A stretch of 49,058 nucleotides of DNA from Okeania hirsuta (lineage in GTDB: Bacteria; Cyanobacteriota; Cyanobacteriia; Cyanobacteriales; Microcoleaceae), in NCBI RefSeq assembly GCF_003838195.1, contig NZ_RCBY01000032.1, forward strand, positions 1 through 49,058, written 5' to 3'. The notes beneath the pieces are model-generated. The model was not told the DNA's origin, did not search any database, and saw only the letters and a list, made by a program, of their open reading frames with translations. Shown in pieces: positions 9,501 through 25,712 of this stretch (position 1 is the stretch's first letter; each line of letters starts with the position of its first letter). Both the position numbers and the translations under genes were made by a program.

Positions 9501-10929
9501 ATATTGTTGGCTCCTCAAAGAGATCGGCATTGTACTTGAAACATCCTACTAGAGATGAGTTACTTTCCACCATTTCTAGCTCCAAGTCAAACTGACCCTC
9601 TTGCTGAGGCATTGACCAAGATTTCAATTTGAGACCTTCTACTTCTACTATTTCTTGTCCTAAGAATAACTGTTGTAGTTTTTCAAATTGTTTAAAGTTT
9701 TGCAGAACAAAGCTAACTTGAAAAATTGGAGAATAACTTAAATCTCTATCTGGCTGCAATCGTTCTACTAACAGAGCAAAAGGAAAATCCTGATGAGCAA
9801 CTGCTTCTTTTACTGTTTGTTGCACCTGAGTTAAAAACTCAGAGAAACTCGGATTTCCTTCCAGATTTGCCCGCATAACCATTGGGTCAACAAAATAACC
9901 GACAATATTGGTGAATTCATACCTGGTTCTTCCCGAAGTTGGTGAACCTACTAAAATATCCTCTTGCCCTGTATAACGATGAAGAAGAACTTGAAATGTT
10001 GCTAGTAACATCATGTACAAAGTTACTCCTTCTCTTTTAGCTACTTCCCTAATTTCTTTAGTTAAATTTTCTGGTAATTGGAAGTAATAAGAAGCACCAT
10101 TGTAAGTTTGAATTTTAGGTCTAGGTTTATCAACTGGTAAATTTAGTACAGGTAATTCTCCTGATAATTTCTGTTGCCAATACTCCCAAAGTTCTTTTCC
10201 TTTGTCGCTTGCCAATAATTCTTTTTGCCAATGAACATAATCCAAGTAAGTATAGTCAATAGGAGTTAGGCTATTTTTAGTCCCTTCAATTAGTGACTGG
10301 TAAATACTGAGCCATTCTTGTACTACTATACCTATAGACCAAGCATCCCAATTAAGATGGTGAAGTACAAGCAAGAGGATATGTTCCTCATGAGAGTATG
10401 TAAATAATCTGATTCGCGCTACAGGTCCGTCTTCAAGATTAAAAGGATGTTGGTATTCTTGAACAACTTTAACATTGAGTTCGTTTTCATTCCAGTTAGA
10501 AGCATCAATTTGTCTAAAATCAATCTCTAAATTAGAATGTATCTTTTGGAATGGCTCTTGCTCTTGCTGAAGAAAAGTAGTACGCAGCAAAGAATGACGT
10601 TCACTTAATAATTGCCATGCCTTCTGTAAAGTATCAAGATTTACTTGAGAATAGATACGGCAGTTAAAGGCTACATTATAAGCTGAACTCTTAGGCGCTA
10701 ATCGCCACAAGAACCATAGTGCCCTTTGACCAAAGGAAAGGGGGTAAACGTTGAAAATATCTGGGCGTTCCCGCAGCAACTGTAAGATTTTGTCTTTGTG
10801 TTGTCTTAGTTGAGCGATTACATCAGCAGTCAACACTTCTTTAGAACCGCCACTGCGTAGCCGTTCTCCCTCAATCCACAACTTTACCCCTTTTAGGGAA
10901 AGGTCTTGTAAAAATTCAATCAAGTTCAT
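3535..10929 (-). CDS. two-module NRPS (dock-C-A-PCP-C-A-PCP-TE)
   Basis: About 2464 residues. Order: TubC-like N-terminal docking domain (1-55, MNLIEFLQDLSLKGVKLW); C1 (about 56-500; HHLNWDA, so DG is DA); A1 (about 537-1050; TSGSTGQPKG); PCP1 (GGDSIRS near 1071); C2 (1133-1560; HHAILDG); A2 (1600-2080; TSGSTGVPKG); PCP2 (GGHSLL near 2126); TE (2176-2464). The A1 pocket reads D-V-W-H-F-S-L-I-D-K, a serine code. A2 reads D-L-F-N-N-A-L-T-Y-K, which I associate with alanine (glycine possible). No epimerase or N-methyltransferase is seen. The TE has GHCFGG, LGIS and PGDRTT where the family has GHSFGG, LD and PGDH, so all three catalytic residues differ. The start at 10929 is preferred to the in-frame ATG at 10947: it gives the docking-domain start and an ATGA overlap with the stop of the repaired PKS2 frame. 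Confidence 0.93.
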   Translation of the reverse strand: MNLIEFLQDLSLKGVKLWIEGERLRSGGSKEVLTADVIAQLRQHKDKILQLLRERPDIFNVYPLSFGQRALWFLWRLAPKSSAYNVAFNCRIYSQVNLDTLQKAWQLLSERHSLLRTTFLQQEQEPFQKIHSNLEIDFRQIDASNWNENELNVKVVQEYQHPFNLEDGPVARIRLFTYSHEEHILLLVLHHLNWDAWSIGIVVQEWLSIYQSLIEGTKNSLTPIDYTYLDYVHWQKELLASDKGKELWEYWQQKLSGELPVLNLPVDKPRPKIQTYNGASYYFQLPENLTKEIREVAKREGVTLYMMLLATFQVLLHRYTGQEDILVGSPTSGRTRYEFTNIVGYFVDPMVMRANLEGNPSFSEFLTQVQQTVKEAVAHQDFPFALLVERLQPDRDLSYSPIFQVSFVLQNFKQFEKLQQLFLGQEIVEVEGLKLKSWSMPQQEGQFDLELEMVESNSSLVGCFKYNADLFEEPTICRMAGHFQTLLEGIVVNPEQKVRQLPLLTTEEHHKLLVTWNNTKTDYLLDKCIHQLFEEQVERSPNSVALVFETEELTYQQLNEQANQLAHYLQAKGIGSEKLVGICVERSPLMVVGLLAILKAGGAYIPLDPNYPQERLSFILEDSQVSVLLTQKQLEKSLPQHQAQSVFLDTDWEKIGQYQQDNPNSEVTIKNLAYTIYTSGSTGQPKGAMNTHQGICNRLCWMQETYKLTTVDRVLQKTPFSFDVSVWEFFWPLITGACLVLAKPEGHKDSAYLVKLIAEKKITTIHFVPSMLQVFLEEIGLETCDSLKQVFCSGEALSLQLQEKFFNRLKAKLHNLYGPTEAAIDVTFWECTHQSQQHTVPIGRPIANTQIYLLDSHLQLVPIGVPGEIHIGGLNLARGYLNRPKLTGEKFIHNPFSEDPESRLYKTGDLARYLNDGSIEFLGRIDYQVKIRGFRIELGEIETILSKHSAIKTAVVVVREDITNDKQLVAYIVPESEQALTSQELRSFLKTKLPSQNIPSAFVFIDTLPLTPNGKLDRRALPTPNQIRPDLQNTYIAPKTSTEQKLADIWAKVLNLKKVGIHDNFFELGGDSIRSIQVRVLGQKIGLDFSIEQIFQHQTIHELAKEVSTLSPGFSEIKTEPFSLISNTERQKLPDDIEDAYPLARLQAGMIFHSEYNHGVVYHDIFSYHLRSIFKQEVFQEAIQNLVRRHPILRTSFDLAASEEPIQLVHQKVDIPLLVEDLRHLSGEEQELTLATWVETEKKQNFDLSRPPLIRFQIHLRTEETFQLSLSFHHAILDGWSVASLFSELLQKYSFLLEGKAYAIEDSLAFEFRDFVAQEQRILSNLEHQEYWLKKLEGITFTKLPRPFNPYDGADAGQHRNYDVDLPYDISDGLKQISYSLSVPLKSVLLAAHLKVLSVLSNQSDIITGLVSNSRPEADDVEKVLGLFLNTLPFSSQLQEGTWIDLIRETFENELEILPVREYPMAELQRILGGQPLFETAFNFIHFDAYKKETGLTGIELLGGNTFEANNLSLLVNFMVDPDSSLVKLFFSYNAAQLDENQISRLGDYYANTLATIVNKPNEQYLSYSPLSEAEQQLQLVEWNKTQANYPQDKCIHHLFEAQVEKTPEAVAIVFKEKQLTYHELNIRANQLANYLQSLGIGSETLVGICVERSLEMVVGILAILKAGGAYVPLDPNYPQERLSLILEDSQVSVLLTQQQLKTSWPQNKAHIVFLDTDWEIIAQHKQDCPINEAKPNHLAYVIYTSGSTGVPKGVAIEHRNTINLLYWAKEVFSPESLAGVLASTSICFDLSVFELFVALCWGGKSILAENALEITNLPVAKDITLINTVPSVIAELLKVDGIPESVKTVNLAGEPLHTSLVKELYKQDTIKSVFDLYGPSEATTYSTFALRSSEGLETIGRPIANTQIYILDSNLKLLPAGVPGELYIGGDGLARGYLNRPQLTGEKFILNPFNHESSCLYKTGDLARYLNDGNIEFLGRIDNQVKIRGFRIELGEIEAVLNTHPQIEQAVVMAREDIPDRKTLVAYVVYDQEKESEITNLRSFLKHKLPEYMIPNVFVHLDTLPLTPNGKIDRKALPIIDSSKIQRKEAYYPAITPIEEQLLAIWRDVLEIQHIGVRDNFFDLGGHSLLAVRLMAQIQAQFSKNLPLAMLVRNPTIETLAAILSRPSSSSEWDSLVKIHSHGSKTPIFCVPGAGGNVLYLQDLARLLKPDRPFYVLQAQGLDGIQTPQTRVEEMAAKYIKAIQSVQPEGPYILVGHCFGGYVTFEMALQLTKQGHKIALLAILGISGPLRDNYPLVVDEDIDDDAQMLIKIATRASQVRPNDNPLLTSYDELTQISSLDEQLDNLIANTNTFTLLDPVANRLMAKGLMEVRRGNLIALLRYNPQETYSDRITLFRGMQDIPQSARDLNAEEIKDWSYDWNNFSTEPVEVIWVPGDRTTMLSDTNLPTLSEKLQKCLDFLDKI

Positions 10930-11129
10930 AGGTCTACCTCTATCCAATCATTATTTTTTACATTAGTTAACAAAGTTTGTTGATTATTTTTTAATTCAAC
11001 TCCAATTGTTGGATGGGTTTCCTTTAGTTGCTTTTGGATTTCTTTAGTTAGAGCAACTACAGTCAAGCCTTCCATAAATTGGCTCAAAGGAACTTCTATT
11101 CCTAGAGCTTTTTGTACCTGATTGCGTAA

Positions 11130-11132
11130 TTA
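11130..11132 (-). other. in-frame nonsense codon (TAA for GAA) in PKS2 ACP
   Basis: Coding strand reads GAT TCT TTG ATG GCG GTA TAA TTA CGC AAT, giving DSLMAV-stop-LRN where ACPs have DSLMAVELRN. One base change (GAA to TAA) explains it. The frame downstream stays open for 67 codons and ends with WIEVDL and TGA at 10926-10928, overlapping the NRPS start. Confidence 0.9.
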
Positions 11133-14100
11133 TACCGCCATCAAAGAATCTATTCCCATCATGGTCAATGGTTGTTCTAATTCGATTTTTTCAATTTTTA
11201 TTCCCAATACCTGAGCTATTTCCTCTAAAAGATAAGCTAATAAAATTTTTTCTGTTTCTTCATCGTTAGCTAGTTTTAATTGTGATAAAATTCTTTCTTG
11301 TTTTGCTTTTGTCGCTAGTTGATTTGAATCATTTAGCAATTGTGTTTGGCCTGGTTTTACCTCAATTTCTTCTAGAAGTAACCTGACTCTTCCTATCTCG
11401 TAAAGTTGTTTAAAGATACTCCAATCAACATTAGCTAAACCAGTTTGGATTTCACTACTATCTAACAATTGTTCTAAAGCGACTAGAGCTTGAGAAGGGG
11501 ATAAAGGTTTAATGCCTCTTTTCCTTAATTCTAATAGTTGTTCTGTATCAGCCATGCCTCCTCCCGTCCAAGGCCCCCAATTGATAGTTAATCCCGGTAA
11601 TCCTATGGAGGTACGATAATGAACAAGCCCATCAAGAAAATGGTTAGCTGCAGCATAATGAGCTTGACCAACTGAACCCCATAAAGCAGCAATTGAAGAA
11701 AAGCAGATAAAAAAGTCTATCTTTATATCTTTAGTTAGTTGATGAAGAAGCCATCCTCCTCTCACTTTTGGTTGTAAAATTGTACTCATTTGGCTTAGTC
11801 CCATCTGTGTTAGTGGTTCAAATTCTGCTACTCCAGCTGCATGAATAATCCCTTTAAGAGGAGGCATAGTTAGTTGGATTTGTTCAAGTACTGCCCTTAA
11901 TTCTTCCTGATGGGATACATCTGCTTGAGCAACTAAAACCCGCGTTCCTTGTTCTTCTAAATTAGCGATCGCTGCTTGCTTTGTTTGAGCAACTAAAACC
12001 CGCGTTCCTTGTTCTTCTAAATTAGCGATCGCTGCTTGCTTTGTTTGATCGGGAGAGCTACGACTGATGAAGACTATATTTCTTACTCCTTTTTCTACCA
12101 TCCACTTAGCAGTATGTAATCCTAAAGCTCCTAATCCTCCTGTAATCAGGTAAGTTCCCTCTGATTGCCATTGATAAGATTGAGATTTTCTTGGAGATTG
12201 CTTAACTAAACGAGCGACATAAGTCTTGTCTCCTCTAATAGAAAGATGATCTTCCGTTGAATTAGAAGTAATCTGATTCAATAGTATTTCTATTTGTTTT
12301 TCTCCACCAGTAGGTTCTAAATCGATTAATCCTCCCCAGAGCTGCGGATGTTCTAAAGATATTACTTTCCCTAATCCCCATAATGGAGTTTGAGCTATTG
12401 CTAATTCCTCTAGATTTAAAACTAATTGTGCTCCTTCAGTTACTAGCCACAGCTTAGGAATAGAATATTGATGATTTTTAGCTAAGGATTGAACTAAATG
12501 CAAGACACTGGCACATCCTAATTTTTCTGCTTGTTCTAGTCCTGTAATTGTTAATTGTTCTGAAGGCAAAGAGTCTAGACTCCACAAATGAATAACATAT
12601 TTTATCGGTGATTTAGTTTCTGTTAAGATTTGTTGGTATAAACTCTCAAAATCTTGAGAATTACTGGGATTAATTTGATAAACTCCACAGCTTAATTTTT
12701 GCCAACTCTCACCAGGATAGACTAGAGTAATTTCTTGACCTAATTGCTGTAAATGTGCTGCTAAAGATTTTCCTTTTCCTTTAGTATCCGTAAAAATTAG
12801 CCAATGACTTAATTCCATCTCCGGTATTATGTTTTGATACACCCCAGATACAGAATAAATAGGCTGCCATTGTAGTTGATAAAACCAATCTTGGAGTTCT
12901 TTTTGTCGTTGAGTTGAAATCAGATTAAGCAGAGCTTTACTACTAGTACGTTTAGAGGTAAGACCCTCAATTTCAGCTATTAATGCTCCCTCCTCATTAA
13001 ACAAGTTAAAATTTGAAGAAACAGTTTCTGGATCGAGTTCTTGAGGAGAGCTTAGTTGTACTTGACTCCAAAGTTGGGAGGTGAAGGGACGATATAATTT
13101 TAACCGTTTTAATTCTATGGGCAAATAAATATCTATATTTTTAGATAATTCATCTTTTTTTGCCAATCTCAAAGCGTATCCTGAATGAAGGCAGGAATCT
13201 AAGAGAATTGGATGTATTTGGTAAGATTGAGATTGTAGAGAGAGATGAGGTGGTAACTGGCTGAAACTAAGAGCTTTTTCTTGACTTACATAAAGTTTTT
13301 GTACTCCTTGAAAATTAGAACCATAATACATTCCAAACTCAGTTAAACTTTCATAGAAGGAAGAAATACTCATCTGTTTGCCATATTCTTGTTCAATAAG
13401 TGATAAGTCGAATCCTCTCTTTTCCTCTGGTATTTCTCCTCTAAGGAGTTTACCTGAAATATGAAGTGTCCACACAGGTGCTTGTTGTTCTTCAGCTATA
13501 TTTAAGCTAAAAATTTCAAAGGTATAACCATTTTTTTGATCGGGTTTCAATATTAACTGAAGAGTTTTTGCTTTTTTCTCAGATAAAATTAAAGCCTGGT
13601 AAATATTTACTTCTTCTAGTATTAGATTGGAATCTTGGAAAATAGCTACTCCTGCAGCTAAAGCCATCTCTAAGTATGCAGCAGCAGGTAAAACTGGTTG
13701 ACCAAAAACTTGATGATCGTTGAGATAAGAAGGCTCAGAAGCACTTAATTGAGTCTGGAATAAAATTTGATTTTCCAAGCCAACTATATGCAATCTTTCT
13801 CTCAGTAAAGGATGCAGAACAGCCTTTTTAGGTAAACAACTATTTGTCTCCACCCAATAGCGTTGCCGTTGGAAAGGATAAGTAGGCAATAGTACCTTGT
13901 TACATAAAGATTTTCGGTGAAATCCTGTCCAATCTATATCCACCCCCTGTACATACAATTTTCCTAAACTACACAGCATCTGTTCCCATGCACCTACTTC
14001 TTCACGCAAAGATGCTAACCATAAGTACTTGTTTTCTCCTACACATTGACTTCCCATTCCTAATAAGATCGGCTTTGGTCCTATTTCTATAAATATTCCA

Positions 14101-15239
14101 TAATCTTCTGTTTCTAATGTCTTGATACTATCTGCAAATCTGACTGGTTTCATTACATGATTCACCCAATACTCTGCTGTGGCTATACTAGGAGCGGCTC
14201 TTTCTCCTGTTACATTGGAAATTATGGGAATCTCTGGTGCATGGTAACTTATTTGTCTTGCTTGAGTTTCAAATGAGTTTAACATTTCTTGCATCACGGG
14301 TGAATGAAAACCGTGGGATACTTTCAGGGTTGTGGTTTTTATTCCTTTTGCTGTCAACAGGGACACTATTTCTGCGATTTCTGGAGTAGCTCCTGATATG
14401 ACTACATTTTCTGGTCCATTGATGGCTGCTATGGCTACTTGCTCTGAATCAGGTGCAATTATTGATTTAATTTCTGCTTCTGCTGCTCTGACTACTACCA
14501 TTTGACCACCAGAGGGTAATTGTTGCATTAACCTGCCTCTGTGAGCAATTAGTTTCAAGCCATCTTCTAAACTAAATATTCCGGCAATGCAAGCTGCTAC
14601 ATATTCTCCTACGCTATGCCCCATGAGTATATCTGGTTTGATGCCCCATGACTGCCATAGTTGACACAGAGCGTATTCTATGGCAAATAAGGCTGGTTGA
14701 GTGTAGGCTGTTTGGTTGATTAAATCTGAGTTTTGTGTTGTTTGTGTATCTGGATAAATTACGGAAAGTAAGGAATGTTCTAGATAGGGTTGCAAGAGCT
14801 GGGAACATTGGTCAACTGTGTGGCGAAATAGTGGCTGAGTTTGGTATAACTCTTTTCCCATATTCAGATATTGGGAACCCTGTCCTGTAAATAGGAACGC
14901 TTTTTTGGGTTGACTATTGTTGTCAGAAACTTTATTAGTGTATAATCCTGCTACTTTTGCTGCTTTTTGGTGATGAGCTAGTTTTGAGACTAACTCCTCT
15001 AAGTTGGAAGCAAGAATAGCAAGTCGATGGTGAAAATGGAATCGTCCACTATTTGCTGTGTAACATATATCTTCTAGTTTTAATTCTGAATGAATTTGCA
15101 GATGATTTTGATAACAACTGACTAATTCTGCTAAAGCTTTTTCTGTTTTTGCCGAGAGGGTTAACAAATGTTTTGGTCTCTCACTCTTAATTCTTAATTG
15201 TTGTTCTAATCCTCCTTGATTAAGGATAGGGGGGTGCAT
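11130..15239 (-). CDS. PKS2 fragment C: AT-DH-KR-truncated ACP
   Basis: A 1369-residue open frame that begins inside the duplicated linker. AT: FTGQGSQ, GHSVGEY (Ser codon 14613-14615) and a GFH variant of the malonyl-type HAFH motif, so malonyl-CoA is likely. DH: DHQVFGQPVLP (His codon 13713-13715) and LDSCLHS (Asp codon 13195-13197) keep the HxxxGxxxxP and DxxxH motifs, so it should be active. KR: GGLGALG, HAAG, then S, Y and N (SIAALWGSVGQAHYAAAN); a Trp before the Tyr loop and no LDD motif suggest an A-type reductase. A 20-residue unit is repeated between the Rossmann strands. The ACP ends at GIDSLMAV because the next codon is TAA rather than GAA, losing helices II-IV after the phosphopantetheine Ser. 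Confidence 0.85.
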   Translation of the reverse strand: MHPPILNQGGLEQQLRIKSERPKHLLTLSAKTEKALAELVSCYQNHLQIHSELKLEDICYTANSGRFHFHHRLAILASNLEELVSKLAHHQKAAKVAGLYTNKVSDNNSQPKKAFLFTGQGSQYLNMGKELYQTQPLFRHTVDQCSQLLQPYLEHSLLSVIYPDTQTTQNSDLINQTAYTQPALFAIEYALCQLWQSWGIKPDILMGHSVGEYVAACIAGIFSLEDGLKLIAHRGRLMQQLPSGGQMVVVRAAEAEIKSIIAPDSEQVAIAAINGPENVVISGATPEIAEIVSLLTAKGIKTTTLKVSHGFHSPVMQEMLNSFETQARQISYHAPEIPIISNVTGERAAPSIATAEYWVNHVMKPVRFADSIKTLETEDYGIFIEIGPKPILLGMGSQCVGENKYLWLASLREEVGAWEQMLCSLGKLYVQGVDIDWTGFHRKSLCNKVLLPTYPFQRQRYWVETNSCLPKKAVLHPLLRERLHIVGLENQILFQTQLSASEPSYLNDHQVFGQPVLPAAAYLEMALAAGVAIFQDSNLILEEVNIYQALILSEKKAKTLQLILKPDQKNGYTFEIFSLNIAEEQQAPVWTLHISGKLLRGEIPEEKRGFDLSLIEQEYGKQMSISSFYESLTEFGMYYGSNFQGVQKLYVSQEKALSFSQLPPHLSLQSQSYQIHPILLDSCLHSGYALRLAKKDELSKNIDIYLPIELKRLKLYRPFTSQLWSQVQLSSPQELDPETVSSNFNLFNEEGALIAEIEGLTSKRTSSKALLNLISTQRQKELQDWFYQLQWQPIYSVSGVYQNIIPEMELSHWLIFTDTKGKGKSLAAHLQQLGQEITLVYPGESWQKLSCGVYQINPSNSQDFESLYQQILTETKSPIKYVIHLWSLDSLPSEQLTITGLEQAEKLGCASVLHLVQSLAKNHQYSIPKLWLVTEGAQLVLNLEELAIAQTPLWGLGKVISLEHPQLWGGLIDLEPTGGEKQIEILLNQITSNSTEDHLSIRGDKTYVARLVKQSPRKSQSYQWQSEGTYLITGGLGALGLHTAKWMVEKGVRNIVFISRSSPDQTKQAAIANLEEQGTRVLVAQTKQAAIANLEEQGTRVLVAQADVSHQEELRAVLEQIQLTMPPLKGIIHAAGVAEFEPLTQMGLSQMSTILQPKVRGGWLLHQLTKDIKIDFFICFSSIAALWGSVGQAHYAAANHFLDGLVHYRTSIGLPGLTINWGPWTGGGMADTEQLLELRKRGIKPLSPSQALVALEQLLDSSEIQTGLANVDWSIFKQLYEIGRVRLLLEEIEVKPGQTQLLNDSNQLATKAKQERILSQLKLANDEETEKILLAYLLEEIAQVLGIKIEKIELEQPLTMMGIDSLMAV
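11925..12048. repeat. 60-bp tandem duplication inside KR
   Basis: Two perfect 60-bp units (11925-11984 and 11985-12044, identity continuing to 12048). On the coding strand each encodes the 20 residues TKQAAIANLEEQGTRVLVAQ. The unit includes a GCGATCGC site. The equivalent KR of PKS1 has the unit once, so PKS2 holds an extra helix-strand pair. Confidence 0.97.
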
Positions 15240-15340
15240 CTCGTCTTGAACAACAATTAATAATTTAGAGTGACTAAATTATTAATTGTTGTTCTAATCC
15301 TCCTTGATTAAGGATAGGGGGGTGCATCTCGTCTTGAACA
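15194..15340. repeat. 88-bp-period duplication with fold-back hairpin
   Basis: A 59-bp segment occurs twice (15194-15252 and 15282-15340). It encodes QDEMHPPILNQGGLEQQL. Between the copies is a perfect 20-bp inverted repeat, arms 15248-15267 and 15275-15294, loop GAGTGAC. The insertion of 88 bp is not a multiple of 3 and brings in TAG. Removing it restores a smooth KS-AT linker. Confidence 0.93.
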
Positions 15341-16125
15341 GGGGCTTCTTCTAAGATTAAATGAGCATTAGTTCCACTTGCACCAAAGGAGTTAATTCCC
15401 GCAATTCTTGTACCATCTTTAACTTGCCAAGAAGTTAATTCAGTGGGTACAACTAGAGGAAAATCTTTCCAGTTAAACTTAGGAGTTGGATTTTTAAAAT
15501 GTAGATGAGGAGCTATTTGTTGATGTTGCAATTGAAGTATTGCTTTGATTACTCCTGCTATTCCAGCGGCTGAACTCAAATGACCGATATTAGTTTTTAC
15601 CGACCCAATCATTAATGGTTTTTTCTTAGTTCTTTCTGCTCCAAATACCTCTGCCAAAGAATTTAGTTCAATAGGATCTCCCAAAGCTGTTCCTGTGCCA
15701 TGGGTCTCTATATAACTTACTTGAGAAGGTTCTATTTTTGCTGCTTTTAGAGCTTGATGTATTAACTGTTTCTGAGAATTCCCATTAGGAACTGTAAAAC
15801 CACTACTTGGTCCATCTTGATTCACAACTGAACCTCGGATCAGTGCCAAGATACGATCTCCTGATTCTAAAGCATCTGATAGACGTTTGAGAACTAATAC
15901 ACCACAGCCTTCACCCCAGGTAGTGCCATTAGCTGCTGCATCAAAAGTTTTACAGTAACCATCTGGTGAAAGCATTTTCGCTTTGGAAGCAACTATCATA
16001 CTATCTGGCAATAACATTAGATTGACACCCCCTGCTAAAGCCATCTGACATTCTTGTTGTCGTAGGCTTTGGCAAGCTTGATGAATAGTTACTAAAGAAG
16101 AGGAGCAGGCTGAATCTATAGTCAT
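15274..16125 (-). CDS. PKS2 fragment B: C-terminal KS
   Basis: A 283-residue open frame from MTIDSACSSS. It carries the ketosynthase active Cys (DSACSSS, codon at 16105-16107) and both histidine motifs (ETHGTGTALGDP and NIGHLSSAAG), and ends in the KS to AT linker (GTNAHLILEEAP). The homologous frame is open further upstream, to about 16240, encoding AKYDSSIEPYLLGGSFLN, so the ATG at 16125 is only the first Met after the frameshift and not a natural start. It stops in the hairpin made by the 88-bp duplication, just after GGLEQQL. Together with fragments A and C it makes a normal KS-AT boundary. Confidence 0.8.
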   Translation of the reverse strand: MTIDSACSSSLVTIHQACQSLRQQECQMALAGGVNLMLLPDSMIVASKAKMLSPDGYCKTFDAAANGTTWGEGCGVLVLKRLSDALESGDRILALIRGSVVNQDGPSSGFTVPNGNSQKQLIHQALKAAKIEPSQVSYIETHGTGTALGDPIELNSLAEVFGAERTKKKPLMIGSVKTNIGHLSSAAGIAGVIKAILQLQHQQIAPHLHFKNPTPKFNWKDFPLVVPTELTSWQVKDGTRIAGINSFGASGTNAHLILEEAPVQDEMHPPILNQGGLEQQLII

Positions 16126-16205
16126 AGAAGGACCAGTAAATCCTAAAATATAAGAAATACGGCCTGCAGCAAGATTTAAGAAAGATCCCCCTAACAGATA
16201 AGGTT

Positions 16206-16727
16206 CTATACTACTATCATATTTTGCGCGATGGGTAGCGCATAATCATAAGCGGTGATACCAACAAAAACCCCTGTAGGACTTCCCTCCGATCGTTGAG
16301 GAATTTGTCCAGCATTTTCGAGAGCTTGCCAACAAACTTCTAAAAATAAACGATGTTGGGGATCTATGGCGATCGCTTCGCGAGGTGAAATCCCAAAAAA
16401 ACCTGGATCGAATTGACTTACATCGAAATCATCTAAAAAACCACCTCGATGAGTATACATTTTTCCTGGGATTTCTGGATTAGGATCGTAGTAAGCATCG
16501 ACGTCCCACCTCTGAGGAGGAATTTCTGTGATTGCATCCACTCCTTTAGACAAAAGTTGCCAAAATTTTTCAGGGTCATTAGCACCACCTGGAAAACGAC
16601 ATGCCATCCCAACTATAGCAATCGGTTCTGTTTTGGCTCGCTCAATTGCTTCTAGTTTTGTTACTGCTTTATTAAGAGCTATAAATACTCGCTTAGAATC
16701 AGCTAGGTGATTTTCTTTTTCTTCCAT
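16206..16727 (-). CDS. PKS2 fragment A: docking helix and N-terminal KS
   Basis: A 173-residue open frame. Residues 1-33 form a charged helix (NHLADSKRVFIALNKAVTKL) typical of an N-terminal PKS docking coiled coil, matching the C-terminal docking-like tail of PKS1. Then the ketosynthase begins with EPIAIVGMACRFPGG and runs to VFVGITAYDYALPIAQ. The frame ends in a short nonsense tail (NMIVV); the expected continuation, AKYDSSIEPYLLGGSF, is in another frame, so this is the N-terminal part of a split KS rather than a complete protein. The start codon lies 10 bp after PKS1, with GGAGGAG inside the end of PKS1 as a likely ribosome site. Confidence 0.8.
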   Translation of the reverse strand: MEEKENHLADSKRVFIALNKAVTKLEAIERAKTEPIAIVGMACRFPGGANDPEKFWQLLSKGVDAITEIPPQRWDVDAYYDPNPEIPGKMYTHRGGFLDDFDVSQFDPGFFGISPREAIAIDPQHRLFLEVCWQALENAGQIPQRSEGSPTGVFVGITAYDYALPIAQNMIVV

Positions 16728-16737
16728 GTTTTCTATT

Positions 16738-19700
16738 TTAATTCTCCTCCAACAAAGTTTCTAACTTGGTAAGTTTTGTTGCGATTGAGAGTTGGATACT
16801 TTCTTCAGATAACTCTTCTACCTCTGACAATTCTTGAATTTTATTTGATTCAGCCTTGGAAAATTCAGAGCGTTCAATGTTTTCTAATTCCCATCCCAGT
16901 ATACTTGAGGCAATGTGATCGGCTAGACTAATAACGTTAGAAAAATTAAAAATCAAAGTCGTAGGTAAAGAGCAATTCAGGCTATCTTCTAGTCGATTTT
17001 TGAGTTCAACTGCCATTAGAGAGTCCATACCCATTTCAAAAAAACCTTGCTCTAAACTTGGCAATTGATCTATTTTTAATCCTAATATTTTTCCTATTTC
17101 TTTTTGAAGATATGTGATTAATAGATTTCTGCGTTCAGTTTTAGGAGCAGTCTCCATTTTTTTAATAATTTCGAGCTTTTGCTTGGAAGTTGAACGTTTT
17201 GTTTCAACTTGTTTGACATTAATTTCTTCTAGAAGTAATCGCTGTCTTCCTGTACTATAAAGTTGTTTGAATAAATCCCAATTAACATTAACTACAGTTG
17301 TTTGGACACTATGACTGTTCCATAGTAATTCTAAAGCAGCTATTCCTTGTTGAGGGGATAAAGACTCTATACCTTTTTCTTTTAATTCTCTCAAAAATTC
17401 TTCTGATGCCATACCACCTCCAGACCATGGTCCCCAATTAACAGTAAAACTTGGTAATCCCTGAGCTTGTCGATAAGAAGATAACACATCTAAAAAATGA
17501 TTGCCTGCACTATAGTGAGCTTGACCAACTGCTCCCCAAACAGAGGCAATGGAAGAAAAGCTGACAAAAAAATCTAACTCTCGATCTTTAGTAATTTGAT
17601 GAAGTATCCATCCACCAATAATTTTGGGACTCATTACTGCTAATAACTGTTCTACTTGCATCCGTTCGATCCGTTCACTTCTTTGTTTTCCTGCTGCATG
17701 AATAATTCCTTTTAAGGTAAACATATAACTATCTATTTTGTCAAGTACTTTCAACATTTCTTCCGGATTGCATACATCAGCTTGAACTGTAACAACTTCA
17801 GCTCCTAGCTGTTTCAAATCACTTAGATATTTTTGTTTGTCCTCCGAGAGAGACGATCTACTTATCAAAACCAAATATTTTGCTCCTTTGGATACCATCC
17901 ACTTAGCTACATGTAATCCTAAAGCACCAAGTCCTCCAGTAATAAGATAGGTAGCATTAGAAGAAAATGATATTGGAGCAGATAATTTAGGACATTGCTT
18001 GAATAAACGAGCTACATAAATCTGTTTTTCTCGTAAAGCTAGATGATCTTCTATTTGATTACTCGTCAAAATTTCTACAAGTGTTTCTATTTCATTTTGC
18101 GAACCTTGCAAATCTAAATCTATTAATCCTCCCCATAATTGTGGATGTTCGAGAGATATTACTCGACCTAAACCCCACAAAGGTGATGTTGCAACTGTTA
18201 GTTCTTCAATTTTAGATAATACAGGCTGAGATCCCCTTGTAACTATCCACAATTGAGGGGAACTGGATATGGAAATTTTAACCAAACTCTGTAACAGGTA
18301 CAGTAAGCTACCACATCCCCATATTTGTACTTGCTCTAACTGAGAAATGCTTAAATTTTCCGAAGTAGGAGCATCTAAACTCCACAAATGAATGACTCTC
18401 TGGCAAGATAATTGCTTTGAGGTTATTATTTCCTGACAAAGTTTTTCAAACTCATCAAAATTACATGGATTTAGTAGATAGGTTCCACTTTCAGGATTTT
18501 TGAAACTTTTTCCACGATAAACTAAAGTACATTTATGTCCTTGTTCTTTCAGTTTTGTTGCTAGTTTTTTCCCTACTCCTGTAGAATCAGCAAAAATTAA
18601 CCAATGGCTCAGTTGAATAGCAGAATTATCTTCGTTAGGTATTAAGGGTTGCCAAAGTAATTGATAAAAATAATCTTTAACTTGATTTTCGATAATTTCT
18701 TTTTGATGGGTTTTTGCTATTAATTCTAACAACTTTGGGATAAATTTTGACTCAATTTCTGATAGTTCATTCTTCTCTTTTAAATGCTGCGTTAAATACT
18801 CCACATTTCCATCAATAAGCATTTGATTGATCCTGGTTTCAATGGAAGTAATAAAACTTGAATCTTTACTGATATTTTCTTGTTTTTCTTTCTCTAATAA
18901 TTCTGTTTCTTCCGGTAAAAATATGATTGGTAATTTTACTTGATACTGTGGATAGTTTTGATAAAATTCATACCAATTTATCGGCATTCCTAGAACATAT
19001 AATTGAGATAAACTTTGCAACATTATTTGCCAGTTTGAATATTGTTCTCGAAGGCTAGAAAGCCAAATTCCTGCTTCTTCTCCCAGATGAGATCTCCCCA
19101 TTGACAAAGTAACTGCTTTTGGACCAATTTCAATAAAGATTTTACAACCCTGTTTATATGCAGTTTCTATAGCAGTAGAAAATTTTACAGGTTCTCCCCA
19201 TACCTTCCTCCAGTATGTAGAATCTACCTCTTCATTCAGTAATTCACCTGAGATAGCTGAAACAAAAGGAATTTTTGAACTAGAGTAATTTACACCTTGG
19301 TGAATTTGATCGACAAGTCCTAGTATCGGTTTAATTCTGTCAGTATGATATCCTTCGGCAAAAGGGAGTTCTTTTACTAATACACCCTCTTTTCTAAGCT
19401 TTTCAGCTACTAATTGAATTGTTTGAGGATCGCCGACTACAGTATTGCGATAACCACCATAAGAAATAATTTTAATTTCTTGAATGTAGGGTTCAATTGT
19501 TTCTTCAACATATTTTTCACTGGCTATAATACCAATAGCTTGACAATTTATTTCTAATTTACTATCCCAAAGCTTTCCAATAGAAACTAATAATTTTAAG
19601 CCTTCTTCTAAATTAAATATTTCTGCAATTAATGCTGCCGAGTACTCTCCAAAACTATGACCCATTACTAAGCTTGGCTCTACTCCCCAAGACTTCCACA

Positions 19701-22700
19701 ATTCGCTTAAAGCATATTGAATTGCAAACAACATTGGTAATCTGTAAATATGTTTTATTTCTGACAAATTATCAACTTTGTTTGAGTACAATAATTCCAG
19801 TAAAGACTGACCTGTATAATCACTAATAATTTTATGGCATTGGTCAATTGATTGACGGAATTTTGGTTGAGTTTCATATAGTTCTTTGCCCATATTTGGG
19901 TAAAAAGTACTGTAGGGGCTAAAAATAAAACCTACCTTCAAAAAATCACTATTTTTAATCCTGTCATTCCAAAGATTTTCTACATCTTTTCCAGCTACAA
20001 AATCTGTGAGTTTTGCAAGTACTTCTAAAGTAGATTGTGCTATAACTGCCAAACGATATTCTGACAATGATTGCTTAGTATTCACTAAGAAACAAAGCTC
20101 TGATAATTTAACTTCTGGATGTTGTTCTATACTAAGTATAGTATTTTTAGCTAAATGTAATAATTCCTGTTGACTAGAAGCAGACAAGCAAAAAATTTGA
20201 AGAGGAAAATCTATTTTTGGTACTGAATAAACATTACACGATGACTCAAATTGATGATTTTTGGTTTGTGCTGTTTCTATCCAGTAACGTTCTCGTTGGA
20301 ATGGATAAGTAGGCAATTCTACTTTCTGACAAGCATAATCTTGGTCAAACCCTAACCAATCTATTTTCGCACCCCGTACATACAACTGCCCTAAACTTAA
20401 TAGTATTTGTTGCCACTCATCCACTCCCGGTCGTAATGATGGTAACCATTCTCCTTCACTCTCTGGCAAACATTGCCTTCCCATGCCGAATAAGATTGGT
20501 TTCGGTCCGATTTCTAGAAATATTTTATATCCTTGCTGATGAAGAGTTTTCATACTTTGGGCAAATCTTACTGGTTCTCGTACATGACGAGTCCAATATT
20601 CAGGAATAGTTATTTCCGCACCTACTTTTTCACCAGTCACATTTGATATTAGTGGTATTTTAGGTTGACTATAGGTTACTTCTTTAGCTACTGCTGCAAA
20701 TTCTGCCAACATTGGTTCCATCAATGGTGAATGAAAAGCATGAGAAACTTGTAACTGCTTGGTTTTAACCCCCACTGCTTCTAACTTACTACAAATGGTA
20801 GCGATCGCTCCACTCTCACCTGAAATTACTATACTTTTTGGTCCATTTATCGCTGCTATTGTCACTTGGGAACTATATTCGCCTACGGCCTCTGTCACTT
20901 GAGATTCTGATGCCATAACAGATACCATCTCACCACCGGAGGGTAACTTTTGCATTAACCTGCCCCGCATAGCGATTAGTTTGAGACCATCTTCTAAACT
21001 GAAAACTCCTGCAACGCAAGCTGCTACATATTCTCCTACGCTGTGGCCCATTACCACATTTGGTTTTATTCCCCAAGATTCCCATAACTTGAACAAAGAG
21101 TATTCAATAGCAAACAGAGCTGGTTGAGTATAAGCAGTTTGATCTATTAAAGATGAACTTGAATTTTCAGCATCTTGATGATATAGAATTTCTAAGAGCG
21201 GATGTTCTAGATACGAACTTAGGATTTGGTTACATTCCTCTAAAGCTTGACGGAAAGTTGGCTGAGTTTCATATAGTTTTCTTCCCATATTCACATACTG
21301 GGAACCTTGACCTGTAAATAGGAAGGCTAATTTTGGATAACTACTATCACTTGATAGTTTTCCTGAAAATACTCCGACGACTTCCTCCCCTGCTTTGTGT
21401 TGCAAAAGTTTTTTCGTTAATTCTTGTGGGTTACTAGCAATGACTCCTAGTCGATGATTAAACTGAGCTCGCCCAGTGTTAGCTGTATAACATACATCTG
21501 CCAGTTCTAATTCTCTATTAGTTTCCAGATAATTTTGATAATGACTCACTAACTCATCCAAAGCTTTTTCTGTTTTTGCTGAGAGAGTTAACAAATGAGG
21601 TTGCTCCTCTAACTGTTGCGTTTTAACTTGAGTTGGTACTTCCTCAAGAATAACGTGAGCATTTGTTCCACTGAAACCAAAAGAACTTACCGCTCCTACA
21701 CAACTTTCATCTCCATCATATTTTTCCCATAGCTTACCCTCCATCGGAATTACACCAGGAATCCCTGTCAAACTCATATAAGGATTCAGCTCTTTCAAAT
21801 GTAAATGAGGTGGTATATATTTATTTTGCAGTGACAACACCACCTTGATTAACCCGGCAATACCCGCTGCCGCTTCAGTATGACCAATATTTGTCTTTAC
21901 TGAACCGATCGTTAAAGGGCGTTCCGAACCACGATTGTTTCCATACACCACTTCCAGAGCCTTAATTTCTACTGGATCTCCCAAAGAAGTACCCGTACCA
22001 TGGGCTTCTACATAAGATACTTGATTAGCTGATATTCCTGCTATAGACAACGCTTTCTGAATCACCGCTTCTTGAGCTGATTGATTTGGTGCAGTCATTC
22101 CATTACTAGCACCATCCTGATTAATTGCTGTGCCCCGCACCACTGCTAAAATTGGGTCTCTATCTTCTATGGCCTGTTTCAAAGACTTGAGAACTACAAC
22201 TCCACAACCTTCACTTCTTACATAACCGTTTGCAGAGGCATCAAAAGTCTTACAACGTCCATCTGGCGATAACATCCCTGCTTGAGAGAAACTAATACTC
22301 AACTCTGGAGACAACAATAAATTCACCCCTGATGCCAAAGCTAATTCACATTCACCATTCCGTATACTTTGACAAGCTAAATGAACAGCACTTAGAGATG
22401 ATGAACAGGCCGTATCTACTGTTATGGCTGGACCATTCAATTTCAAAAAGTAAGATAATCTTCCTGCACCGATAGCATTAGAACTACCTGTGGCAAAATA
22501 TAGGTTTAAATCTTGCTCCTGATTATGTTTGTTCTGTAGCTGTTCATAATCATGAAAAGCAATACCTACAAATACTCCTGTTTCTGTTCCTGAAAGAGAT
22601 TCTGGATTAATGCCAGCATTTTCTAGTGCCTTCCAGTTTTCTTCTAGTAATATACGTTGTTGTGGATCTATATATTTTGCTTCACGGGGGGAAATATGGA

Positions 22701-25302
22701 AAAAATCTGCATCAAATTTGTCAACTTCAGAAATAAAACCACCATAACGACTAGATATTTTTCCTGGTTGATTTTTATCGGGATTGTAATATTTTTCAAT
22801 ATCCCAACGATTCAGAGGTACTTCCGTAATTGCATCAATGCCATTACACAGCAGTGACCAATACTTTTGGGGGCTATCAGCATCTCCAGGAAACCGACAA
22901 GCCGTTCCTATAATTGCTATCCCATTTTCTAATTGAGCTGCCGAAAAACCTGAATCAGTTTTTTCGGCTTTTGGCTCTGGTTGTGCGATTTTTGGCAACA
23001 ACTCAGAAATATTCTTGTGTTTAGCCTGTGTTTCTCCCTTAAAATAACTAGCGATCGCCTTTGGAGTTCCATATTTAAAGAAGAAGTTCGGCTCGATTTT
23101 TACTTCCAGTTTTTTCTCCAATAAATATTTCAGTTCTAACAGTTCCAAAGATTCGATTCCCATTTCCATCAGTGGGCGATCTGAATCAAAAGAGCATTTC
23201 TTATTCATTACTGTCCGAACACAACCAGCCACAACTTCATCTACATCTTCTTCTATTTCTACTTTTTCCTGCTGATTTTTTTCAACTCCTACACCATCAA
23301 AACGTTGACGATTATGGATATCGTATTCTATCAGAACACCATAACCTTGATTTTCTATATCCTTGGGCCTATAACCAGGAAGAACTTTTTGAATTTTTGC
23401 CCCATGTATTTGATGAAAGCGCAAAATCTGGTCTACCAGTAGTCCTGATTCATTTTTTTTGTGGATATATTCTGCCATTGGTATTGGGGAATAGTCTGGA
23501 TAATTACGACAACGAGTTACTCCCACAACCCTTTCCACACCACCCATCACAGCACAATACTGAAGCATCCATTCCAGTAATTGATCCCCTAACCCTTGGT
23601 TTTGCAACTCTGGCAAAATATTCGTAGCTAGTAATTGTATCACTACTCCTGATTCAGTATGTAATGATGGCACTTCTACAAAGGTTCTATTCTCCAAAAC
23701 TTCTGTCCGTTCGATCCTTTGGGAATAGATAGCTCCAACAATCTTATCCTCAAGCTCCAAAACAAACTGCCCTTGTGGAAAATTCAAAATCCGCCTCTGA
23801 ATTTCTTCACTGTCAACCCGGAGATTTTCTGACCAACACAATTCCTCTAGTACTATTAGCTCTGGTAAATCCTTAATTGTAGGATGGCGCAACTTGTAAG
23901 GCTTTTTCTCAAAACAATTTAAGGTGATACGACTAAATGGAAAATTCTGAGGATATCGTTTCGAGAACTCCCACTTGGGGAATAAACCTACTTCAGCAGC
24001 ACAACTGAGAAACACATCAGCTTCCACCAGATGTTGACTTGAGAAAGCTTGTAAAGCATCAAAATGCAGGTTATTACTACTGTCTAAAAATTTGTTTACT
24101 ACTTCTGGTTCTAAACAATGAACTTCCAGAATCATCATCCCATTTTTAGTAACCACAGAAGACCATCTTTCCAGATGTTCTACCAAGCTTTGTATCATAA
24201 TCTGGGCCGGAATCAAACCGCCGTCTGAATCTACATAAACCCCTGAGTAAGAAAGTTGACTCCGCTTTTTTGCTGCTTCTAAGTTTTGGGGAGGGATAAA
24301 TGGGCGATCGTGGTCCAAAAAGGAGCGAATGTGGAGAATTTTTTCTGGCTCGTCAATTCCATGAGTTCTTAAGTCAGATATCATTTGTTGTGGGTTTCCA
24401 ATATCCCCCTTCATTAGCAAGTTAGGAATACCTGCTAAAGTTAATGCAGATTCTTGCAACGATGCTTGGTTATAATCTACTCCTATCATCTGCACTGGAT
24501 ATTTGTCTAGCACTTTTCCCCTAGCAGATTTTGTACTGATTACTTGATAAACCCGTTTGAGTAGTGTACCATCACCACAACCCATGTCTACAATATAGTT
24601 TGGTTGTTCGTAATAGGGTAATTGATTAAAAATACTCAGAATTAATTCGTCTACATCAGCAAAAAACTTCTGGTGTTGAAAACCATTGCTCATTACGTTC
24701 AATTTTCGATCGATGTGACTTTCACTTCCTTGTTCGTCTCTACAAAATACTGTTTGACTTTTTCCAAATAATACGTCTGAAATCTGCAACAACATGGGAG
24801 TATAGGAAGCGGTAACTCCCGTAATTAGTATTCTCTCTACTATAAATTTACCCAGAGCGGTCAGGCATAAATTATTTTCATAATCATTCGATTTTTGGCT
24901 ATGTTTTTGGACTGTTATCGAACTTTTCTCAGCCCATCCTTTAGCTATAAATAATGTTGATAATTCTTCTCGTATATGAGGACTTACACCAGAGAATAAA
25001 GGTTTTTCTTCCTGGTCTACTGCTAATAAATTATGCTTGTGAAGCGCTAGCATAATTGGTATTATTAGAACTCCATCTAAGAAATCTGCTATTGTTATAT
25101 CATTAATATGCCACTGCTGTTGAGAAAGCTCTATCCAACTTTTGAGAATACTAGGCTTTTCTTTTCCTAGTAAGTAGGATTCTATAGGTAGGTTGTATAA
25201 GTCTAATATTTTTTCAGGAATGGACAAGTAAGCTTGAGAATTTTCTGTGAGGGAGTATTCACCAACTTCATTTTTTGATAGCCAACCTAGGGATTGCATC
25301 AT
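16738..25302 (-). CDS. PKS1: AR-MT1-GNAT-ACP loading module plus KS-AT-AT*-KR-ACP
   Basis: 2854 residues as read from 25302; homology continues upstream to an ATG at 25469 in another frame. Order: adapter region (to about 190); MT1-type methyltransferase (190-450; DMGCGDGT near 239; LDHDRPF); GNAT-like decarboxylase/acyltransferase (466-660; Thr596 and His630, spaced like CurA Thr355/His389); ACP (GIESLELL, Ser718); KS (790-1215; DTACSSS Cys966, EAHGTGT, NIGHTEAAAG); AT (1320-1620; GHSVG Ser1421, HAFH, malonyl type); second linker plus AT-like domain (1720-2090; GHSFG Ser1883 kept, GQG lost); KR (2210-2720; GGLGALG, S-Y-N, Trp and no LDD, so A-type); ACP (GMDSLMAVEL, Ser2761); C-terminal docking-like helix. 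Known GphF and AprA loading modules methylate malonyl-ACP and, if GNAT is active, decarboxylate it, so isobutyryl or propionyl is the expected starter. No DH: the first extension should stay beta-hydroxy. Confidence 0.92.
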   Translation of the reverse strand: MMQSLGWLSKNEVGEYSLTENSQAYLSIPEKILDLYNLPIESYLLGKEKPSILKSWIELSQQQWHINDITIADFLDGVLIIPIMLALHKHNLLAVDQEEKPLFSGVSPHIREELSTLFIAKGWAEKSSITVQKHSQKSNDYENNLCLTALGKFIVERILITGVTASYTPMLLQISDVLFGKSQTVFCRDEQGSESHIDRKLNVMSNGFQHQKFFADVDELILSIFNQLPYYEQPNYIVDMGCGDGTLLKRVYQVISTKSARGKVLDKYPVQMIGVDYNQASLQESALTLAGIPNLLMKGDIGNPQQMISDLRTHGIDEPEKILHIRSFLDHDRPFIPPQNLEAAKKRSQLSYSGVYVDSDGGLIPAQIMIQSLVEHLERWSSVVTKNGMMILEVHCLEPEVVNKFLDSSNNLHFDALQAFSSQHLVEADVFLSCAAEVGLFPKWEFSKRYPQNFPFSRITLNCFEKKPYKLRHPTIKDLPELIVLEELCWSENLRVDSEEIQRRILNFPQGQFVLELEDKIVGAIYSQRIERTEVLENRTFVEVPSLHTESGVVIQLLATNILPELQNQGLGDQLLEWMLQYCAVMGGVERVVGVTRCRNYPDYSPIPMAEYIHKKNESGLLVDQILRFHQIHGAKIQKVLPGYRPKDIENQGYGVLIEYDIHNRQRFDGVGVEKNQQEKVEIEEDVDEVVAGCVRTVMNKKCSFDSDRPLMEMGIESLELLELKYLLEKKLEVKIEPNFFFKYGTPKAIASYFKGETQAKHKNISELLPKIAQPEPKAEKTDSGFSAAQLENGIAIIGTACRFPGDADSPQKYWSLLCNGIDAITEVPLNRWDIEKYYNPDKNQPGKISSRYGGFISEVDKFDADFFHISPREAKYIDPQQRILLEENWKALENAGINPESLSGTETGVFVGIAFHDYEQLQNKHNQEQDLNLYFATGSSNAIGAGRLSYFLKLNGPAITVDTACSSSLSAVHLACQSIRNGECELALASGVNLLLSPELSISFSQAGMLSPDGRCKTFDASANGYVRSEGCGVVVLKSLKQAIEDRDPILAVVRGTAINQDGASNGMTAPNQSAQEAVIQKALSIAGISANQVSYVEAHGTGTSLGDPVEIKALEVVYGNNRGSERPLTIGSVKTNIGHTEAAAGIAGLIKVVLSLQNKYIPPHLHLKELNPYMSLTGIPGVIPMEGKLWEKYDGDESCVGAVSSFGFSGTNAHVILEEVPTQVKTQQLEEQPHLLTLSAKTEKALDELVSHYQNYLETNRELELADVCYTANTGRAQFNHRLGVIASNPQELTKKLLQHKAGEEVVGVFSGKLSSDSSYPKLAFLFTGQGSQYVNMGRKLYETQPTFRQALEECNQILSSYLEHPLLEILYHQDAENSSSSLIDQTAYTQPALFAIEYSLFKLWESWGIKPNVVMGHSVGEYVAACVAGVFSLEDGLKLIAMRGRLMQKLPSGGEMVSVMASESQVTEAVGEYSSQVTIAAINGPKSIVISGESGAIATICSKLEAVGVKTKQLQVSHAFHSPLMEPMLAEFAAVAKEVTYSQPKIPLISNVTGEKVGAEITIPEYWTRHVREPVRFAQSMKTLHQQGYKIFLEIGPKPILFGMGRQCLPESEGEWLPSLRPGVDEWQQILLSLGQLYVRGAKIDWLGFDQDYACQKVELPTYPFQRERYWIETAQTKNHQFESSCNVYSVPKIDFPLQIFCLSASSQQELLHLAKNTILSIEQHPEVKLSELCFLVNTKQSLSEYRLAVIAQSTLEVLAKLTDFVAGKDVENLWNDRIKNSDFLKVGFIFSPYSTFYPNMGKELYETQPKFRQSIDQCHKIISDYTGQSLLELLYSNKVDNLSEIKHIYRLPMLFAIQYALSELWKSWGVEPSLVMGHSFGEYSAALIAEIFNLEEGLKLLVSIGKLWDSKLEINCQAIGIIASEKYVEETIEPYIQEIKIISYGGYRNTVVGDPQTIQLVAEKLRKEGVLVKELPFAEGYHTDRIKPILGLVDQIHQGVNYSSSKIPFVSAISGELLNEEVDSTYWRKVWGEPVKFSTAIETAYKQGCKIFIEIGPKAVTLSMGRSHLGEEAGIWLSSLREQYSNWQIMLQSLSQLYVLGMPINWYEFYQNYPQYQVKLPIIFLPEETELLEKEKQENISKDSSFITSIETRINQMLIDGNVEYLTQHLKEKNELSEIESKFIPKLLELIAKTHQKEIIENQVKDYFYQLLWQPLIPNEDNSAIQLSHWLIFADSTGVGKKLATKLKEQGHKCTLVYRGKSFKNPESGTYLLNPCNFDEFEKLCQEIITSKQLSCQRVIHLWSLDAPTSENLSISQLEQVQIWGCGSLLYLLQSLVKISISSSPQLWIVTRGSQPVLSKIEELTVATSPLWGLGRVISLEHPQLWGGLIDLDLQGSQNEIETLVEILTSNQIEDHLALREKQIYVARLFKQCPKLSAPISFSSNATYLITGGLGALGLHVAKWMVSKGAKYLVLISRSSLSEDKQKYLSDLKQLGAEVVTVQADVCNPEEMLKVLDKIDSYMFTLKGIIHAAGKQRSERIERMQVEQLLAVMSPKIIGGWILHQITKDRELDFFVSFSSIASVWGAVGQAHYSAGNHFLDVLSSYRQAQGLPSFTVNWGPWSGGGMASEEFLRELKEKGIESLSPQQGIAALELLWNSHSVQTTVVNVNWDLFKQLYSTGRQRLLLEEINVKQVETKRSTSKQKLEIIKKMETAPKTERRNLLITYLQKEIGKILGLKIDQLPSLEQGFFEMGMDSLMAVELKNRLEDSLNCSLPTTLIFNFSNVISLADHIASSILGWELENIERSEFSKAESNKIQELSEVEELSEESIQLSIATKLTKLETLLEEN

Positions 25303-25364
25303 TCTTAAGGCTACTTGCAGATGACCTGTGTTTGCTCCTAGGACTTTAGCTATTTGCTGGTGGG

Positions 25365-25469
25365 TTATTTTTTTTTTTTGATTAATTCAAATAATCCCTT
25401 TTCTCTACAGGCTAAAATTACAGGAATAGAAACAAAGCCGTGTTCGTAACGATTAATTAACTCTAACAT
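25365..25469 (-). CDS. out-of-frame N-terminus of PKS1 adapter region
   Basis: The ATG at 25469 opens a 34-codon frame (MLELINRYEHGFVSIPVI then LACREKGLFELI) ending in KKKK-stop at a run of 12 A. The frame of PKS1 takes up directly after the run with THQQIAKVLGANTGHLQV, which continues the same winged-helix-like adapter domain. One extra A, or two fewer, joins them into a protein of about 2,910 residues. This is therefore the real N-terminus of PKS1, not a separate peptide. No strong ribosome site is seen near the ATG; AAGGATGAG lies about 20 bases upstream. Confidence 0.75.
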   Translation of the reverse strand: MLELINRYEHGFVSIPVILACREKGLFELIKKKK

Positions 25470-25712
25470 TTTATCTTAATTGATTCTCATCCTTTCTTCT
25501 TAATTTGGTAGATTTTTGATAATCTTCTTTTATTTAAGTTTATAACTATAACTTGTAATCAGGAATTTTGGCAAGATAATTTTTGTTTGAAGTTTAGACT
25601 AAATAGTTAAATATATAGAACCCATTTGGTGCCTATTGGGAAATAAAAGTATTCTCAGGATTTAGACAAAGACACTACATACTCAAAACCATAGTTACTT
25701 TTTTTTATTTAT

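Follow-up and report, generated by a model that had tools for sequence, protein, structure and literature searches.

Which starter unit would be made by the loading module at the head of PKS1, the first polyketide synthase (PKS) gene in a 49,058-nucleotide stretch of Okeania hirsuta DNA (contig NZ_RCBY01000032.1, all of which is referred to here as the window), and is the gene that carries this module still working? We consider it probable that the module is a methyltransferase (MT1)-GNAT-acyl carrier protein (ACP) loader which would methylate its substrate once to give propionyl-ACP, that it is part of a loader-ketosynthase (KS)-acyltransferase (AT) cassette shared with other assembly lines, and that the line was recently broken in this genome. 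All the features described are located on the minus strand of the window, and residue numbers refer to the 2854-residue open reading frame of PKS1 unless stated otherwise.

The loading module and its relatives

The main reading frame of PKS1 (16738..25302, 2854 residues counted from the first ATG at 25302) opens with a winged-helix lid (PF23589, 24760..25077, residues 76-181) and an AprA-type methyltransferase core, MT1 (PF23525, 23917..24723, residues 194-462, 368.3 bits), both found with Pfam. These are followed by a predicted GNAT-type decarboxylase domain (23263..23916) and by the loading ACP (23017..23235, borders approximate) with Ser718 in the motif GIESLEL. The KS (21796..22923, residues 794-1169) has its catalytic Cys and His motifs and the first AT (20371..21324, residues 1327-1644) carries the HAFH motif, which is typical of malonyl specificity. 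This is the AR-MT1-GNAT-ACP loading set that a first-pass annotation of the window had placed at the start of PKS1, and both the Pfam domains and the matches to solved structures bear it out. A search of solved structures with the first 781 residues gave 7uci (843.8 bits), 6b39 (546.9), 2ree (372.7) and 6mfc (130.3), and matches of this size to loader structures exclude chance for the identity of the module. Judged by its sequence, this part of PKS1 is a polyketide loading module of the MT1-GNAT-ACP kind, AprA/SxtA type, and belongs to the known family AprA/SxtA/CurA/GphF. The window genome has one match to this loader.

The MT1 motifs of PKS1 comprise the S-adenosylmethionine (SAM) motif DMGCGDGT (residues 239-246) and LDHDRPF (329-335) together with His395, Gln418 and Gln423, and the motifs were found to be invariant across five aligned copies. 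His331, His395, Gln418 and Gln423, candidate metal-site residues, are in conserved or nearly conserved MT1 columns. The generic GNAT match in Pfam is weak (21.7 bits against a cut-off of 20.7), and Thr596 and His630 align without gaps with chain positions 140 and 174 of the CurA GNAT structure 2ree. We take these positions to be CurA Thr355 and His389, and Trp490 and Arg645 presumably correspond to CurA W249 and R404, so that the Trp/Thr/His/Arg set of CurA (249/355/389/404) is complete. The annotation had named both motifs and had given both GNAT residues at these very positions, along with their CurA equivalents, and it was also right that the decarboxylase residues are kept, unlike in the AprA-type pseudo-GNAT, as the alignment shows a full GNAT with all four residues. 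An AlphaFold model of residues 1-680 built from five near-identical rows had a mean pLDDT of 34.2 and a pTM of 0.23, and no structural claim is drawn from it.

GphF, AprA and CurA, the relatives named at first pass, are all matched by the window loader, but the closest solved relative of its methyltransferase, SxtA, was not among them. We take 7uci and 7ucl, which carry the database title 'polyketide synthase-related protein', to be the MT-GNAT didomain of SxtA, the saxitoxin starter enzyme. The match to 7uci (843.8 bits over residues 1-664) has the same lid-MT-GNAT order, whereas SxtA ends with an ACP and an aminotransferase-type condensing domain and the window continues as ACP-KS-AT. The apratoxin protein AprA (MT1-pseudoGNAT, 6b39) has the MT1 core and lid in common with the window, and its SAM and LDHDRPF motifs are identical; the match stops at window residue 563, inside the GNAT, which in the window is full-length. 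The nearest GNAT is that of the curacin protein CurA (AR-GNAT-ACP, 2ree), with 165 of 223 residues identical and the Trp/Thr/His/Arg set in common. CurA is not known to have an MT core, and the window, which carries one, is therefore not of the CurA type. The GNAT of GphF (gephyronic acid, 6mfc), compared by this domain only, belongs to the same family and is more distant. Within the genus, a CurA-like AR and GNAT-ACP loader without an MT core was observed in G387:C175 (37352-38869; L020 and L021), as would be expected if an ancestor of MT1-GNAT type had lost its MT core.

The closest kin are the loaders of Okeania SIO1I7 (L002), SIO2B3 (L003) and SIO2C9 (L004) and of Moorena SIO3H5 (L005), which are 88-94% identical to the window over the loading module. 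They share its four active-site residues and its GNAT set, and differ from it by an unbroken N-terminus and by other downstream modules.

Extent of methylation and the starter unit

In the route that we propose, MT1, an enzyme dependent on metal and SAM, would carry out a single C-methylation of malonyl on the loading ACP to give methylmalonyl-ACP, which the CurA-like GNAT would decarboxylate to propionyl-ACP, and the KS would then extend this propionyl starter with malonate. Methylation of malonyl-ACP followed by decarboxylation had been predicted at first pass and holds as a prediction, with the MT1 and GNAT residues conserved. Passages of PMC10127204 describe the GNATs of CurA and GphF as decarboxylating malonyl-type substrates, and a section of PMC10100342 states that the GNAT Arg and Thr are needed for decarboxylation.

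The extent of methylation was assessed at columns 163, 164, 417 and 418 over 14 other rows with a full-length MT1. L013 (the window itself), rows without one or both column pairs (L020, L031-L035, L037 and L041) and the distant MT-only rows L036 and L038-L040 (V,T,T,H) were left out. Column 163 is the only column with Ile in SxtA and Thr in AprA that was found by eye in the structure alignments, and it is the best fit to the reported Ile-to-Thr switch. The window and its four close kin have V,T,L,Q at the four columns. SxtA has Ile, Val and Phe in place of Val163, Thr164 and Leu417 and shares Gln at column 418, with a propionyl product expected for it. The set T,T,Y,H occurs in AprA and in rows L018, L019 and L029; the window does not have it, and the Thr163 and His418 of the AprA-type dimethylating set are Val163 and Gln418 there. 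Rows L024 (I,V,F,Q) and L025 (V,V,F,Q) have the SxtA order of MT-GNAT-ACP-aminotransferase-type domain and, as seen in L025, Val163 is compatible with this architecture. The other rows are I,T,Y,H (L017), V,V,V,Q (L026), T,T,Y,Q (L027), V,T,C,Q (L028) and V,A,L,Q (L030), and the partial rows L031 and L041 have Y,H at 417/418 and E,T at 163/164 respectively. On these residues the window is to be sided with the SxtA rows at column 418 and is in between at 163. The SxtA order with a propionyl-ACP intermediate is described in part of the review PMC2885083.

The assembly lines headed by near-identical loaders provide a further line of evidence. The loaders of SIO1I7 (G388:C44) and SIO2B3 (G387:C101) are 93% identical to that of the window, with the same four active-site residues, and both clusters begin MT1-GNAT-ACP-KS-AT-ACP-cMT-AMT, where cMT is a C-methyltransferase and AMT an aminotransferase. 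The KS-AT-ACP-cMT-aminotransferase order would make an alpha-methyl beta-amino acid. The SIO1I7 cluster (L002/L059/L060/L064) spans about 219.7-270.5 kb and has a Phe-type module; that of SIO2B3 (L003/L062/L063/L065) spans about 2.4-54.3 kb and has in its place a Tyr-type module that carries an additional methyltransferase-like domain. Domain searches of the downstream ~42 kb of the former, and of the matching stretch of the latter, gave C-A-KR-PCP, five C-A-NMT-PCP, C-A-PCP, KS-AT-cMT-ACP and C-A-NMT-PCP-TE (C, condensation; A, adenylation; KR, ketoreductase; PCP, peptidyl carrier protein; NMT, N-methyltransferase; TE, thioesterase). The adenylation codes, interpreted by eye, are Gly, Leu-like, Gly, Val, Phe (SIO1I7) or Tyr-like (SIO2B3), Ala and Ala, and the extra stretch in the Tyr-like module has a PRMT5-like match (E 2.4e-7). 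In both Gly modules of both clusters the NMT SAM motif is EIGCKTG, fitting an unmethylated Gly, and the other NMTs have E[VI]GCGTG. Scaffold gaps of 100 N flanked by 127-base repeats are present once in the SIO1I7 cluster and twice in the SIO2B3 cluster. The apparent frame breaks at these places (one and two respectively) were rejected as lesions because each broken module is continuous in the other cluster, and they are assembly joins.

Dolastatin 12 and lyngbyastatin 1 have the order 3-amino-2-methylpentanoate (MAP), Hmp, Gly, N-MeLeu, Gly, N-MeVal, N-MePhe or N,O-diMeTyr, Ibu and N-MeAla. The module order and adenylation codes fit these structures, which makes the two clusters candidate assembly lines for dolastatin 12 (SIO1I7) and lyngbyastatin 1 (SIO2B3). 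As MAP needs a C3 (propionyl) start, the loaders of these clusters should give propionyl, and since its active-site columns are identical to theirs the window loader should do so too. MAP, Ibu and an Hmp ester are given for dolastatin 12 in an excerpt of PMC7600079, and a passage of PMC2901827 defines Ibu and calls dolastatin 12 closely related to lyngbyastatin 1. Part of PMC7825088 lists lyngbyastatin 3 for Symploca. According to a passage of PMC8225149, the dolastatin 12 and lyngbyastatin-analogue clusters of Leptothoe had not been studied, and we found no published gene cluster for MAP, majusculamide C/dolastatin 11 or lagunamide/dolastatin 12 in titles and abstract openings, a body of text that mostly excludes subscription journals.

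We lean to a single methylation, with a propionyl starter more likely than isobutyryl, because Gln rather than His is at column 418, Val rather than Thr is at 163, and near-identical loaders head clusters that fit a propionyl start. The annotation had preferred isobutyryl and put propionyl in brackets, an order which Gln418, Val163 and the kin clusters do not bear out. For isobutyryl, MT1 would have to methylate twice before the GNAT acts, as in GphF; gephyronic acid isobutyryl is derived from dimethylmalonyl-ACP in a section of PMC10100342 and AprA is termed dimethylating in part of PMC10784701. Several observations weigh on this side. Val163 is isosteric with the Thr of AprA, Thr164 is that of AprA and not of SxtA, and Leu417 is smaller than the SxtA Phe, possibly leaving room for a second methyl. 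The closest non-kin row to the window clade in the tree is L029, which has T,T,Y,H, although the support is weak (83/80, not starred) and the tree does not settle the extent of methylation. Furthermore, the assignment of the two clusters depends on the residue order taken for the two compounds, on adenylation codes read by eye and on clusters with 100-N gaps, and a passage of PMC7825088 reports that dolastatin 12, although in the spectral library, was undetected by liquid chromatography-tandem mass spectrometry in 10 of 24 samples, which may or may not include SIO1I7 and SIO2B3. With the AprA His replaced by Gln at 418, Val163 also present in L025 with its SxtA architecture, and clusters fitting MAP-containing products headed by near-identical loaders, we regard the isobutyryl starter as quite unlikely. 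An acetyl starter, made if MT1 were inactive in practice and the GNAT only decarboxylated malonyl as in CurA, is very improbable: the GNAT is close to that of CurA and a loader without an MT core exists in the same genus, but no part of MT1 is missing, the five aligned copies do not differ in its motifs, and its pairwise ratio of nonsynonymous to synonymous rates (dN/dS) is 0.12-0.17.

The shared cassette and the frame break

The loader does not stand alone in its similarity to the kin lines. A block of 5.2 kb (20265..25472) has 88-92% DNA identity to L002, L003, L004 and L005, and in each of them the long DNA match ends at 20265-20281, just past the first AT. The block is followed by ACP-cMT-AMT in L002 and L003, by DH-cMT-KR-ACP in L004 (DH, dehydratase), by cMT-KR-ACP in L005, and in the window by a second AT and then KR-ACP. 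A loader, KS and AT that precede such differing downstream domains behave like an exchanged cassette. In addition, the synonymous divergence (dS) of MT1 and GNAT (0.05-0.26) is lower than that of AT (0.53-0.67), a difference suggesting that these loaders have been exchanged with one another.

The second AT of the window (18649..20232, from Pfam and motif inspection) is divergent and lies directly after the first, with its own upstream linker. The GHSFG nucleophile Ser and a His are kept in it, and GQGSQ and the Arg position are lost. Among the matches listed from 61 family genomes, a search with 550 residues including the linkers found no close relative; the best other score was at 37% identity and no listed match exceeded 41%. 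This AT may be a remnant of the recipient module. The KR (17422..17955, residues 2450-2627) and ACP (16912..17112, residues 2731-2797) that come after it were located by Pfam. Our tentative reading, to which we give somewhat less than even weight, is that one propionyl cassette (MT1-GNAT-ACP-KS-AT, ~5.2 kb) has passed between unrelated Okeania and Moorena lines and heads the dolastatin 12 and lyngbyastatin 1 lines, and that in the window it was fused to an older module, leaving a degenerate AT, before silencing. In Okeania SIO2C9 (L004/L066/L067, G386:C300) the same loader heads four PKS modules and then C-A-KR, an outline like the aurilide family. Assignment of this cluster to that family was not adopted: the outline fits, with one scaffold gap, and the starter is not settled by the parts of PMC7911808 and PMC6410412 that bear on it.

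The N-terminus of PKS1 is split. The start MLELINRY at 25469 is in a frame that stops at 25365, and the main frame does not open until 25386 (reading downwards), so that the first 34 codons (25365..25469), the N-terminal part of the AprA_N/lid region, are in another frame and end in a stop. A homopolymer scan found a tract of 12 A on the coding strand at the break (25368..25379); the whole 49-kb window has no other A/T run that reaches 9 and no G/C run that reaches 8. All four relatives inspected (L002, L003, L004 and L005) have the same N-terminus joined to the module in a single open frame. AprA_N (PF23526) was found near residues 1-65 in these four (6-70 in L005) and is missing from the Pfam list of the 2854-residue frame at E <= 0.001; in the window copy the N-terminal AprA_N/lid region is split by the frame break. 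A protein begun at the internal ATG would be without the AprA_N domain, and the split would bear on the function of the window copy, not on its kinship.

The next gene, PKS2 (11130..16727), is also interrupted, with three frame- or stop-type lesions. Its KS is in two frames (16206-16727 and 15274-16125), a 67-nt repeat (15186-15252/15274-15340, copies 88 nt apart) with a stop is located between KS and AT, and an in-frame TAA cuts the ACP off directly after DSLMAV; its KR carries a 60-nt in-frame duplication (11922-12041). The description of the module as apparently fully active is therefore not supported, because the N-terminus is out of frame across the A tract and the next PKS gene has lesions. 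The small PKS-NRPS line (NRPS, nonribosomal peptide synthetase) appears recently silenced or broken, presumably with loss of function, with its catalytic residues intact.

Substitution counts give mixed evidence on recent silencing. When MT1 and GNAT are compared pairwise with those of the four relatives, dN/dS is 0.12-0.23, which indicates that both were under selection. Branch-wise counts (nonsynonymous/synonymous, window side against relative side, L005 as outgroup) showed relatively more amino-acid changes on the window side for KS in all three comparisons (11/16 v 8/26, 12/18 v 9/38 and 12/20 v 12/46) and, against L004, for MT1 (9/12 v 5/14) and GNAT (10/10 v 5/14). Against L002, MT1 had no excess on the window side (6/9 v 6/8) and the lid had fewer amino-acid changes there (2/7 v 20/14).

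Alternatively, the frame break could stem from a fault in the assembly or be overcome by slippage: if the A tract was miscounted, or if transcript slippage gives some full-length protein, there is no lesion and the module works. Such a tract, the only homopolymer of at least 9 in the window, is a typical site for either event, the remainder of PKS1 is open over 2854 codons, the low dN/dS of MT1 and GNAT speaks for conservation, and related drafts do hold assembly faults, as in the three gapped interruptions of the SIO1I7 and SIO2B3 clusters. Against this, the PKS2 lesions (frame break, 67-nt repeat with stop, 60-nt duplication and in-frame stop) are neither at a homopolymer of at least 9 nor at an N run. 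Moreover, of the 12 AT matches of this genome, 3 are on this contig, and among the 8 listed from elsewhere in the genome 7 are in frames without inner stops. We hold a working module to be unlikely and prefer a recently broken line.

Neighbouring genes and implications

Beside the two PKS genes, a domain search identified an NRPS with the order C-A-PCP-C-A-PCP-TE (3535..10947). Its adenylation codes, interpreted by eye, are DVWHFSLIDK (Ser-like) and DLFNNALTYK (Ala-like); with two modules and a TE, the line would seem meant to make a short acyl-Ser-Ala. A P450-like frame at 320-1699, judged by eye, lies next to the NRPS and is a possible tailoring gene.

For many metabolites of marine cyanobacteria the starter unit depends on whether an MT1 methylates once or twice, and the propionyl prediction, made at the level of sequence, can be compared with the chemistry of clusters having the same loader. 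The window copy serves as a warning that conserved residues are no proof of an active gene. What the analysis adds is a predicted starter assignment, candidate dolastatin 12 and lyngbyastatin 1 clusters, and a putative case of cassette exchange at the post-AT boundary.

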